A stretch of DNA of 64,000 nucleotides, from assembly GCF_016599855.1 (NCBI RefSeq), contig NZ_CP067041.1, forward strand, positions 5,456,001 to 5,520,000, read 5' to 3'. This document shows positions 19,893 to 23,269 of the stretch, piece after piece. The stretch comes from Bradyrhizobium diazoefficiens (lineage in GTDB: Bacteria; Pseudomonadota; Alphaproteobacteria; Rhizobiales; Xanthobacteraceae). Made by a program: the position numbers and the translations under genes. How positions within the stretch are numbered: position 1 is the first letter of the stretch; each line of letters begins with the position of its first letter. The notes under the pieces were generated by a model. It was not told the origin of the DNA, did not search any database, and worked only from the letters and a program-made list of their open reading frames with translations.

Positions 19893-19920
19893 AGCCTCAA
19901 CGCATTCGGCATCGTAGATT

Positions 19921-21213
19921 CCATGGGCGGTGAGCGTGGCCTTTCCGATAGGTTTGGGTTTCCACACTCGAACCGATGGAGAGTCAGATGCAAGCATCGA
20001 CCGTAGACACGCTCACCGCCGGCCATATTGGCACAATTTTCGTTGCGATTGAACTCAGCCAGAAGACGTGGCTGGTGACGCTGCACAGCCCGGATCGGGA
20101 TCGGATGTCGCGCCACAAGCTCGAGGGGGGCGATCATGCGGGGCTGCTGGCGCTCATTGAGAAGGTCCGCAGCCGGGCGGCGGAGAAGCTCGGATCGGTG
20201 CCGCGGGTGGTGAGCTGCTACGAAGCCGGCTATGACGGCTTCTGGCTGCATCGTCTGCTGGAGGCCGCCGGGATTGTGAACTTCGTGTTCGACCCCGCGA
20301 GCATTGCGGTGGAGCAGCGATCGCGGCGGACCAAGACGGACCGGATCGACGGTGAACTTCTGCTGCGGACGTTGATGGCCTATTTGCGCGGCGAGCCGCG
20401 GGTGGTCCGGATTGTGCGGGTGCCGAGTGTGGCGCAGGAAGACGCCAGGCGCGCCAGCCGCGAACGCGATCGGCTGGTCAAGGAACAGACGGCCCATACC
20501 AACCGGATCAAGGCGCTGCTGCGCCTTCTGGGAATGGCAGTCGGCAATCCGCGGCGGCGCGACTGGCTGAGCTGGCTCGCGCGGCAGCGTGACTGGCAGG
20601 GGCAGCCGCTGCCGCCGCATCTGTTGGCCGAAGTGACGCGCGAGCACGCGCGGCTGATGCTGATGCGGAAGCAGCTTGCGGTGCTGGAAAAGGCGCAAGC
20701 CGCTCCCGCTCCCGCTGTTCCTGCGCAGATGGCTGAGCGGAAGGATCTGCTGCAGCGGCTCAAGGCGCTCGGGCCGGCCTTCACCGCGATGCTGGTGAAC
20801 GAGGTGTTCCACAAGGACTTTCGCAATCGGCGCGAGGTCGCCAGCTACGTCGGACTGGCGCCCAGCCCCTGGCAGAGCGGCGGCATCGATCGCGAGCAGG
20901 GCATCAGCAAGGCAGGCAATCCGCGCGCGCGCCTCAAGGCGATTGAGCTGGCCTGGCTGTGGCTGCGCCATCAGGCCGACAGCGAGCTCAGCTGCTGGTT
21001 CCACACCCGCACCGCCACTGCCGGCAAGCGGGCCAGGCGCATCGCCATCGTCGCACTGGCACGCAAGCTGATCGTGGCGCTGTGGCGCTATCTCGCCACC
21101 GGGCTCGTACCTGCGGGGGCAACCATGAAGGCATAAAACCCAACCAGCAACCGGGCGCTGCGCTTCGCCGCAGTCCGCGCGGGATGGATGATGACCGTGC
21201 CACCCATGGGCCG
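19921..21213 (+). mobile_element. IS110-family element 1 (ends uncertain)
   Basis: The element carries the transposase at 19988. CCATGGGCGG (19921-19930) and the reverse complement of the sequence ending at about 21210 (CCATGGGTGG) form a 10-bp, one-mismatch inverted pair of the kind found near the ends of IS1111-type elements. No target duplication is visible. The true ends may lie some bases outside, or much further right, since non-coding sequence of uncertain origin follows to 21,469. Confidence 0.4.
19988..21136 (+). CDS. IS110-family transposase 1
   Basis: 382 residues from the ATG at 19988, which has GGAG 6 bases upstream; an ATG at 19976 lacks a site. The N-terminal RuvC-like DEDD domain shows FVAIELSQKTW (Glu in place of the usual first Asp), VSCYEAGYDGFW and RTKTDRIDGELL. 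The C-terminal transposase_20 domain shows LKALGPAFTAMLVNEV...YVGLAPSPWQSGG with the candidate nucleophile Ser. The change at the first acidic residue could reduce activity or reflect the IS1111 branch. It is unlike element 2 in sequence. Confidence 0.88.
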   Translation: MQASTVDTLTAGHIGTIFVAIELSQKTWLVTLHSPDRDRMSRHKLEGGDHAGLLALIEKVRSRAAEKLGSVPRVVSCYEAGYDGFWLHRLLEAAGIVNFVFDPASIAVEQRSRRTKTDRIDGELLLRTLMAYLRGEPRVVRIVRVPSVAQEDARRASRERDRLVKEQTAHTNRIKALLRLLGMAVGNPRRRDWLSWLARQRDWQGQPLPPHLLAEVTREHARLMLMRKQLAVLEKAQAAPAPAVPAQMAERKDLLQRLKALGPAFTAMLVNEVFHKDFRNRREVASYVGLAPSPWQSGGIDREQGISKAGNPRARLKAIELAWLWLRHQADSELSCWFHTRTATAGKRARRIAIVALARKLIVALWRYLATGLVPAGATMKA

Positions 21214-21469
21214 AACAAAAACAGCCGTTTTGTAGATGGGTCTCATCCTCAGGCTTCCTTGCCGCAAGCATGCGGAATGTGGGTCCGGACCACACCAGTC
21301 CGACCGGATATGAGGTGATGCAGTGAGCTGCAAAAATCTTCGGAAGCCAATCCTCGCCGGAACACGGTCGTCGCGCTGCGCTACGCATGGCTCCGCGCGC
21401 CGCCCTCGCACCCCTGCCAACCTCACTCAGGCCAATCGAAAAGCCTTGACTCGCAAATCCCCATATGAG

Positions 21470-21561
21470 GGTGGGCAAAGGCGCGCGCTCTTCGCGCGCC
21501 GTGCCCACCATCTATCTGTATATGTGAAACGATCGGTGGGCACGCTTCGCTTTGCCCACCC
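21470..21561. repeat. Composite palindromic repeat (GGTGGGC type)
   Basis: Outer arms GGTGGGCAAAG (21470-21480) and CTTTGCCCACC (21550-21560) are perfect complements. Inside are two hairpins, GGTGGGC...GTGCCCACC (to 21509) and GGTGGGCACG...TTTGCCCACC (from 21536). From memory this is a dispersed Bradyrhizobium intergenic repeat. Element 2 has inserted at its right edge. Confidence 0.75.
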
Positions 21562-21599
21562 TGTACCCTTCTGACGTTCGTGGCCGGCCTACAGGTGTA

Positions 21600-21745
21600 G
21601 ACTGGCTTTCGGGCCGATCTGCTGGGAGCAGCCTTGCCCACCTGTGCCTTGAGCACCCACGTAGGAACCGCGCCCCGGCGGAACGGCCGCGATCGAGATC
21701 CAGTAGGAGGTTTTGCGCCGAGAGCGCCAGTACAGGGATCGATCA
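21600..21745 (+). ncRNA. Candidate bridge RNA of IS110 element 2
   Basis: Loop 1: TTGCCCACC (21634-21642), hairpin GTGC-CTTGA-GCAC (21644-21656), CGTAGG (21660-21665). The first segment equals the DNA just left of the insertion core. The last is complementary to CCTACG at the right junction. Loop 2: GTAGGAGGT (21703-21711), hairpin GCGC-CGAGA-GCGC (21715-21727), GTACAGG (21730-21736). Its first segment equals the element's right end (23222-23230), and its last is complementary to CCTGTAC, the left end with its core. This is the target loop / donor loop design of IS621 bridge RNA. RNA ends are not known. Confidence 0.75.
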
Positions 21746-21786
21746 GGATCGCGGCTGGCCCGCTTTGAGAGCGAGGAGATCCAACA

Positions 21787-23040
21787 ATGGTCAACGACGT
21801 GCAATGGTTCGTCGGGATCGATTGGGCAACGCAGAGCCATTGCGTTTGCCTGCTGGATGCCGAAGGACGATCGGTCGGTCAGCGCGACTTCGCGCATGGC
21901 GGGGCCGGACTGACGGAGCTGCGTGATTGGCTGCTCGAGAAGACCAAGGCTGCACCGGGACAGATCGCGGTGGCGATCGAGACGCCGCACGGCCCGGTGG
22001 TAGAGATGCTGCTGGAGCATGGCTTTGTGGTCTTTGCCATCAATCCCAAGCAGCTCGACCGGTTCCGTGATCGCTTCACGGTAGCTGGCGCCAAGGATGA
22101 TCGCCGCGACGCCTATGTGCTTGGAAGTTCGCTGCGCACGGACCGTGCGGCCTTCCGGCAGCTTGCGGCCGACAATCCGGTGGTGATCGAACTACGCGAG
22201 TGGTCGCGCATGGCGGAGGAACTGCAGCAGGAGCGCACGCGGCTTGCCAATCGCCTGCGCCAGCAGCTGTGGCGATATTATCCACAAGCGGCCAAGCTGA
22301 CCGACGATGTCGCCGACGATTGGTTCCTGGCACTTTGGCAAAAGCTGCCGACCCCGGCCCGCGCGGCCAAAGCCGGCGAGAAGGCAATCGCGCGCATCCT
22401 CGGCGCATACCGTATCCGCCGCCTCGATGCGGCGACGGTGCTCAAGACCTTGCGCGAGGCGCCGCTGTTCGTGGCGCCGGGCACGACGGAGGCCGCCTGC
22501 GCACATATCCGCAGTCTTGCGGCACGTCTGCACCTGGTCAATCAGCAGATCAAGCAGGCGCAGCAGAGTCTGGACCGCCTGTGCGCCGAGCTCGAAGCAG
22601 AGGAGAATCCCTCGGGGCAGAGCTGCGAGCAGTGTGACGTGACGATCCTTCGCTCCTGGCCAGGAATCGGCAGAATCAACCTCGCCACACTGCTTGCCGA
22701 GGCCGCAGAGCCCCTGCGCAGACGAGATTATCACGCCTTGCGCGCCTTGGCAGGGGTCGCGCCGGTGACGCGGCAAAGCGGTAAGCAGCGCTTCGTGATC
22801 CGCCGCTTGGCCTGCAACAGACGGCTGCAGAGCGCCGTTCATCACTGGTCGCGCGTCGCGCTTCAACACGACGCGGCCCCGCGGCGACGCTATGACGCTT
22901 TGCGGCAGCGCGGCCACGGCCATGCGCGGGCGCTCCGTGGTGTGGGAGATCGCCTGCTCTTTGCCTTGTGCGCGACGCTCAAACACCAGGTACCCTACGA
23001 CGCAGCCTACACGAGCGTGAAGACCTCGCCAGCGGGCTGA
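21787..23040 (+). CDS. IS110-family transposase 2
   Basis: 417 residues. DEDD residues are D12 (VGIDWATQ), E65 (AIETPHG), D105 and D108 (KDDRRDAYVL), close to the IS621 positions D11/E60/D102/D105 as I remember them. The C-terminal transposase_20 domain contains WPGIGRINLATLLAEA and GVAPVTRQSGKQ, with S331 as the likely nucleophile. The middle is helical and longer than in small IS110 members. GAGGAG lies just before the ATG. It is probably an RNA-guided recombinase working with the RNA from its own left end. It appears intact. Confidence 0.92.
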   Translation: MVNDVQWFVGIDWATQSHCVCLLDAEGRSVGQRDFAHGGAGLTELRDWLLEKTKAAPGQIAVAIETPHGPVVEMLLEHGFVVFAINPKQLDRFRDRFTVAGAKDDRRDAYVLGSSLRTDRAAFRQLAADNPVVIELREWSRMAEELQQERTRLANRLRQQLWRYYPQAAKLTDDVADDWFLALWQKLPTPARAAKAGEKAIARILGAYRIRRLDAATVLKTLREAPLFVAPGTTEAACAHIRSLAARLHLVNQQIKQAQQSLDRLCAELEAEENPSGQSCEQCDVTILRSWPGIGRINLATLLAEAAEPLRRRDYHALRALAGVAPVTRQSGKQRFVIRRLACNRRLQSAVHHWSRVALQHDAAPRRRYDALRQRGHGHARALRGVGDRLLFALCATLKHQVPYDAAYTSVKTSPAG

Positions 23041-23112
23041 GCCGTTCCTTTGTTCGGCCGCATGCGACCGTTCCTTCGTCCCGACCTGCCGGTCGGCAGA
23101 GCGCCGCGCGCA

Positions 23113-23174
23113 GACGCTATCCAGGATGCCCTTTGGCACCGGCAAAGCCGGCGCGAAGCGTCCTGGATAGCGTC
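23113..23174. repeat. 14-bp inverted repeat in the right end of IS110 element 2
   Basis: GACGCTATCCAGGA (23113-23126) and TCCTGGATAGCGTC (23161-23174) are perfect complements with a 34-bp loop, itself GC-rich and partly self-complementary. It may act as a terminator or a structural hairpin of the element. Confidence 0.75.
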
Positions 23175-23269
23175 GAGCACGGTGCTATGCTCATCAACCA
23201 GCGGACGCCCCTTGACGAAGGGTAGGAGGTCCTACGGCAGCTACGCTTCACGCTCCACAAACAGAATAA

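Follow-up and report, generated by a model that had tools for sequence, protein, structure and literature searches.

An IS110-group insertion sequence of Bradyrhizobium whose left end encodes a predicted bridge RNA with guides matching its target and its own ends

The window analysed here, a stretch of 64,000 nucleotides of a Bradyrhizobium genome, carries at 21563-23233 an apparently intact insertion sequence of the IS110 group with one gene, and a search of the genome for further copies left the element count at one. The sequence-only reading of this DNA had placed an IS110 element at exactly these positions, which holds to the base; all parts of the element given below lie on the forward strand. 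CT cores, as are typical of the IS110 group, are present at both ends (21561-21562 and 23232-23233), so that the interval 21563-23233 holds one core copy, and the junctions read GCTTTGCCCACC-CT in the left flank, GTACCC... at the left end, ...GTAGGAGGTC-CT at the right end and ACGG in the right flank. The left target TTGCCCACC with its core CT (21552..21562) is the end of a host palindromic repeat, and the left donor GTAGGAGGT, a C, the right core CT and the right target ACG follow one another at 23222..23236, as identified by sequence match. The element comprises a non-coding left end encoding the predicted bridge RNA (21563..21786; 224 nt), a recombinase gene (21787..23040) and a right end of 193 nt including the core, the left end being the longer of the two by little.

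The 417-aa product is an IS110-group DEDD recombinase that contains the Pfam domains DEDD_Tnp_IS110 (4.2e-34) and Transposase_20 (4.4e-16), both above the Pfam cut-offs, and scores 161.6 bits against the NCBIfam model NF033542 ('IS110 family RNA-guided transposase'; cut-off 140). When a profile of seven relatives was compared with solved structures, IS621 (8wt6; 2.9e-13) and ISCro4 (9t56; 1e-11) were the sole two solved-structure sequences at E 0.001 or better; the similarity to IS621 is remote, and the IS621 chain has 328 residues rather than 417. Six residues (D12, E65, D104, D105, D108 and S331) are invariant in the seven aligned recombinases, and the serine is aligned with an SG motif of IS621 in the profile alignment, in which E65 is not matched column for column by HMMER. 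The catalytic residues of IS621 include D102 and S241, and we take the remaining acidic residues of the aligned recombinases to have catalytic roles as well. The reading frame is of full length, at 417 aa compared with 411-420 aa in six aligned relatives. Judged by its domains, conserved residues, predicted left-end RNA and CT cores, the element is a member of the IS110 family, IS110 group. As in the IS110 group of the seekRNA work, the transposase is preceded by a long non-coding region in which both target strands are matched; this upstream position of the predicted RNA sets the element apart from IS1111 members, which have their RNA downstream and possess subterminal inverted repeats (PMC11187229).

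Bridge-RNA-guided movement is an established mechanism in IS621 and has been predicted to extend to most IS110s (PMC11208160; PMC11187229), and the left end of the Bradyrhizobium element contains four words that would serve as its guides. The left target guide TTGCCCACC (21634..21642) matches the left flank before the core CT (21552-21560) at 9 of 9 letters, and the right target guide CGTAGG (21660..21665) has the reverse complement CCTACG, which is C-CT-ACG of the insert-free site; the left donor guide GTAGGAGGT (21703..21711) is identical to the right end at 23222-23230, and the right donor guide GTACAGG (21730..21736) has the reverse complement CCTGTAC, which is C-CT-GTAC of the circle joint. 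These are the matches that the sequence-only reading had reported, and all are present where it placed them, in the order and strand sense of the IS621 target and donor loops that it had likewise proposed (PMC11208160). Indeed, left guides in IS621 pair with the bottom strand and right guides with the top strand, and here too the left guide matches the bottom strand and the right guide the top strand (PMC11208160). In contrast to IS621, the letters after the left target guide are UG and not CU, such that the core would be read mainly by the right guides, and the guide reads a Bradyrhizobium repeat. One explanation for the four matches is chance or selective reading, given that the words were picked after inspection and that the 6-mer CGTAGG alone appears in 1141 of 20000 dinucleotide shuffles of the left end (TTGCCCACC, GTAGGAGGT and GTACAGG appear in 35, 19 and 162, respectively). 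However, each word occurs once in the left end, the same positions hold matching guides in relatives, and all four words together appear in 0 of 20000 shuffles, a test that bounds rather than proves because of the post hoc choice of words; we regard chance as extremely improbable, as had been claimed before any shuffling.

Two hairpins with guide-like flanks had been read in the 224-nt left end, and these are recovered here as a target-binding stem-loop (21619..21681; stem 21619-21626 / 21674-21681, inner hairpin 21644-21656) and a donor-binding stem-loop (21686..21755; stem 21686-21694 / 21747-21755, inner hairpin 21715-21727), preceded by a 5' stem-loop (21583..21606). This architecture, with the predicted RNA in the left end, a 5' stem-loop, a target-binding and then a donor-binding loop, and a CT core, is that of IS621 (PMC11208160). 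We drew the three-stem structure on seven Bradyrhizobium left ends, built a covariance model and searched 58 sources (the seven training sequences, L015, L016 and 49 others), which took in 51 of 80 related loci and omitted half elements, B. manausense copies of the same element and partial or weaker matches; L216 and L045, whose contigs are equally long, share a left end and were counted as one element. The model, a check that the sequence-only reading had itself put forward, folds with the loops as read and matches upstream of the recombinase in 56 of the 58 sources and in 49 of the 51 outside the training set, with no match in L074 and L103. Its match in the window (21563-21787) is to a training sequence, and the prediction draws on folding and covariation in relatives. 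Within the window the model matches the left end only (E up to 1), and an RNA in the right end, which is a trait of the IS1111 group, was not found with it.

In alignment A3, which was fitted to the model and includes four weak extra model matches, 34 of 38 pairs are changed on both sides, compared with 26.5 in shuffles (0 of 500 reach the observed count), and 91.4% of cells are paired, compared with 74.2% in shuffles and 34-41% when the structure is slid. All ten pairs of the 5' stem-loop and all eight of the target-binding outer stem (97.4% of cells paired) are changed on both sides in this alignment. RNAalifold, applied without the model to a fresh MAFFT alignment of 16 sequences, independently recovered both the target-binding and the donor-binding stem-loop; the guides again fall in internal loops, and 20 of 38 pairs are changed on both sides; the 5' stem-loop is absent from that result. 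Folded alone, the left end is no better than shuffles (z -1.0). No Rfam family reaches the gathering score in the window, nor does any in the derivatives L130 and L131 or the loci L173 and L177, which are described below.

The sequence-only reading had proposed comparing the guides of other copies with their own flanks. Because the genome holds no second copy, the element offers no within-genome replicate and the comparison was made in relatives, where the left guides do follow their flanks. The left-end start was recognised in 54 of 56 elements (L102 and L076 lack a recognised start, and L087, in which the start was wrongly picked, was kept), and the 9-nt left guide was scored against the 9 nt preceding the core. 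The 30 distinct left guides, which come from several phyla as their records are titled, score 6.87 of 9 with their own flanks and 4.22 with swapped flanks, and none of 20000 shuffles attains the own-flank sum of 206 (shuffle mean 129.3, sd 6.8); this permutation test covered left guides, right-end detection having failed at many distant loci. The 22 guides without a run of five Cs give 7.32 and 4.08, respectively. Only 19 of the 30 guides score highest, ties included, with their own flank. The fits range from exact guide and flank pairs (GCGTCCACC/GCGTCCACC in L061, CCGCAACGC/CCGCAACGC in L083 and GACGGGACC/GACGGGACC in L086) to poor ones of 6 of 9 letters in L045, 5 in L008 (at GGAGCCACC), 4 in L058, L082, L113 and L115, and 3 in L084.

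These comparisons bear on the hypothesis that recognition of the target is due to the protein, or to a DNA hairpin, and that the left-end matches are remnants of an earlier insertion or repeat rather than guides. The target is a palindromic repeat able to form hairpins, and because relatives within the genus insert into identical or similar repeats, the agreement between guide and flank there is partly due to shared history. Against this hypothesis stand the 30 distinct guides from several phyla that follow their own flanks, the covariation of the RNA stems, and the position of the matches in two internal loops in the IS621 order; we consider it very unlikely.

Copies within single genomes occupy sites that match 5 to 9 of the 9 guide letters. 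In B. manausense, elements with the guide UUGUCCACC have the left flank TTGCCCACC five times and CAATCCACC once, all six ending in CCACC|CT, and all eight right ends found among nine right-half loci have ACG as their right flank. The complete chromosome of G196 contains two guides: all six copies with UGACCCAUC are at CCCATC|CT..ACG (6 to 7 of 9), and the four copies with UGACCCACC are split evenly between CCCATC and CCCACC sites (6 to 7 letters of 9 matched), each with ACG on the right. The right flank is thus ACG in 10/10 full copies of this genome; it is ACG as well in the 11/11 derivatives of two other genomes, described below. In G140, the guide UUAUCCACC is found at TAACCCACC (three copies), TAATCCACC (two) and TGACCCACC (one), with 7 to 8 of 9 letters matched, and in G117 both copies with the guide UUGCCCACC, the same as that of the window element, are at TAACCCACC, a less good fit of 7 of 9. 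Right flanks other than ACG are found in L007, L009 and L010 (GTG, ACA and ACT).

Within the genus, guides with C at position 4 are at C sites in 26 of 26 cases, and guides with U are at sites with C (13), T (7) or G (1) in 21 cases (47 of 48 loci; L030 was left out), counts that are not independent because sites share guides and elements. Although few independent guides contribute to it, this pattern fits base pairing with wobble. Across 23 elements, 10 of 32 mismatches between guide and target are U(guide):C(target); a systematic use of G-U wobble by U guides was considered on this basis and set aside, the share of U:C mismatches being suggestive, not strong. The element and its relatives appear to provide a compact series, made by nature, of bridge RNAs with changed targets, and such retargeting is consistent with programmable guides. 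Since several of the guides, including two that share a genome, are each found at multiple dispersed-repeat sites, rules of mismatch and wobble may be readable from genomes, and these would concern a bridge-RNA system outside enterobacteria.

A genome-wide count of the 14-mer TTGCCCACCCTACG gave 70 occurrences (38 forward and 32 reverse; 0 for the reversed control), often in inverted pairs about 80 bp apart; it follows from the copy number and the inverted pairs that TTGCCCACCCTACG is the end of a dispersed palindromic repeat. Palindromic repeats have been reported as targets of IS110 elements including IS621 (PMC11208160). Another IS110-family element, distinct from the first, lies at about 19914-21468 of the window. 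It encodes a 386-aa protein, and its non-coding ends are short on the left and long on the right. It has inserted into the other arm of the repeat pair that holds the first element, at a site that reads as the reverse complement of that element's target motif; a further copy of it lies at G000:C1:331785-333381. A crude exact-word check of its right end gave only 6-7-mers, and its site may be one base off.

IS621 is transcribed from a promoter on its circle junction (PMC11208160). When the right and left ends of the Bradyrhizobium element are joined in silico, a -35-like hexamer TTGACG of the right end (23212..23217; 5 of 6 consensus letters) and a -10-like hexamer TACCCT of the left end (21564..21569; 3 of 6) lie 17 bp apart, and the pair TTGAC(G/T/C)-17-TACC(C/G)T is found in 9 of 10 elements joined in this way, the spacing being 18 bp in the tenth. 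Mononucleotide-shuffled junctions score as well as TTGACG-17-TACCCT in 70 of 20000 cases. Among 12 distant right ends, TTG is found at the same place in 11 (L102 has CTTTAC). In the window element as integrated, such a pair is absent from both junctions, and a scan for consensus promoters found none, as would be expected of a promoter confined to the circle. A weak promoter-like pair thus seems to arise only across the circle junction, as in IS621.

We consider it very probable that the element at 21563-23233 is an IS110-group element that moves by bridge-RNA-guided recombination, and as such it adds a new natural example to an already known mechanism. The sequence matches, the conserved and covarying RNA structure, the left guides that track their sites and the recombinase domains in an open frame come from this analysis; the circle, its transcription, the RNP and catalysis are modelled on IS621. 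By this analogy, excision would join the right and left ends at the core CT to form a circle, whose joint would assemble the promoter (-35 TTGACG of the right end, 17 bp, -10 TACCCT of the left end) from which the left end would be transcribed into the bridge RNA. The target guides of the first loop would then pair with TTGCCCACC-CT-ACG at the end of the dispersed palindromic repeat, the donor guides of the second loop would pair with the circle joint GTAGGAGGTC-CT-GTAC, and the RNP of bridge RNA and DEDD/serine recombinase would exchange strands at the CT cores. The palindromic-repeat target and the DEDD and serine recombinase are features shared with IS621, to whose rebuilt junction promoter the promoter-like pair would correspond (PMC11208160). 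It is possible, if unlikely, that the architecture is real and this copy is no longer mobile, as its single occurrence in the genome and the promoter scan of the integrated element would allow; however, the frame is of full length, the ends, core, guides and promoter-like pair are all present, and a single copy is equally compatible with a rare or recent arrival.

The least expected find, and the part worth following, is a set of transposase-less derivatives in relatives. G061 contains seven identical 238-bp copies (L130, L159, L161, L163, L165, L167 and L169) and G141 four identical 242-bp copies (L131, L160, L162 and L164), in which a left part, reaching roughly to where the target-binding loop closes, is joined to the right-end hairpin and the right end. 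The derivatives hence retain the 5' stem-loop, the target-binding loop and both ends, and lack the recombinase gene and the donor-binding loop. Their left parts are 99% (G061) and 100% (G141) identical, and their right parts 100% and 97% identical, to the one full element found in the same genome (L010 and L008, respectively), whereas identity is 77% between L010 and L008 and about 80% between the two derivatives; because each matches the element of its own genome and differs between genomes, the two families arose separately. The breakpoints of the two families differ by a few nucleotides, and in both they coincide or nearly coincide with the bases of the same pair of hairpins. Derivative sites fit the guide: all seven in G061 are at TTTGCCCACC-CT..ACG, as are three in G141, the fourth being at CTAATCCACC-CT..ACG. 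Among 265 genomes of the genus, whole-derivative matches were found in G061 and G141 only, a search in which two candidates per genome were scored with a query of the G061 type, so other derivatives may be missed.

The simplest reading is that the derivatives are probably deletion products mobilised in trans, since a 22-bp donor and a bridge RNA supplied in trans suffice for IS621 (PMC11208160). We also considered that they are natural half-bridge-RNA elements, whose circle would yield a target-only guide while the resident element would supply the donor loop and recombinase, given that IS621 can recombine in vitro with its target and donor RNAs supplied as two molecules (PMC11208158). The predicted fold of the G141 derivative is a target-binding loop plus hairpin (z -4.8); in the G061 derivative the outer stem of the target loop, as read from the sequence, is shortened, which argues against selection for a working half RNA, and we hold the half-bridge interpretation to be doubtful. 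If it were true, such satellites could evolve guides of their own and redirect the resident recombinase. The derivatives suggest that IS110 elements have satellites, and they turn the natural occurrence of split bridge RNAs, which are known from in vitro work, into a testable question. Like bacterial MITEs, the derivatives are multi-copy, lack a transposase and are found at the parent's kind of target, and they are unlike MITEs in deriving from an IS110 element and keeping the target-binding half of a guide RNA (PMC10969869). The main text of that MITE review does not contain 'IS110' and has IS1111 only as an inserter into a MITE (PMC10969869), and no miniature element described as IS110-derived turned up in the open-licence literature searched or in passages of PMC10969869, PMC11187229, PMC3718332, PMC3189936 and PMC9769881, which is weak evidence of absence.

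G061 and G141 each contain two solo left ends (L177, L179, L168 and L170 in all) and two solo right ends (L171, L173, L172 and L176), and all but L172, whose right end lies outside this comparison, are broken at or near the hairpin junction of the derivative. The equal numbers suggest splitting by the insertion of other repeats and rearrangement. An alternative, that each solo end is half of a larger cargo element, was also considered; however, one solo left end adjoins DNA that is a multi-copy repeat, a copy of which lies about 150 bp from one solo right end, making insertion of another repeat at the hairpin junction, and rearrangement thereafter, the likelier origin.

Two further features of the ends of the element differ from IS621. 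An 8-nt inverted word is common to both ends (TACCCTTC at 21564-21571 and GAAGGGTA at 23217-23224), and it exceeds the subterminal inverted repeat of 2-3 bp that is a group-wide pattern, without being a strict limit, in the IS110 group (PMC11208160). Its length falls within the 7-17 bp of IS1111-type subterminal repeats, though the RNA is in the left end, and by eye L008 seems to retain the word with a change on both sides, and L009, L010 and L045 do not. Second, a strong hairpin with 17-nt arms of 94% complementarity (23113..23174) adjoins the right end; its surrounding region (23098-23195) has a fold z of -7.5, and it is the hairpin retained in both families of derivatives.

Several minor observations concern these regions. 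The segment 23037-23111, about 75 bp following the stop codon, is highly conserved among five relatives and shares 82% identity with part of another multi-copy element in the host genome (L002-L004). L043 (G115) is a right-end-only palindrome, in which the last ~20 bases of the element lie head-to-head inverted in host DNA. In L021 and L023, from two genomes, another sequence, by eye seemingly the same in both, interrupts the left end where the target-binding hairpin has its base, as though the hairpin base were an insertion hot spot.
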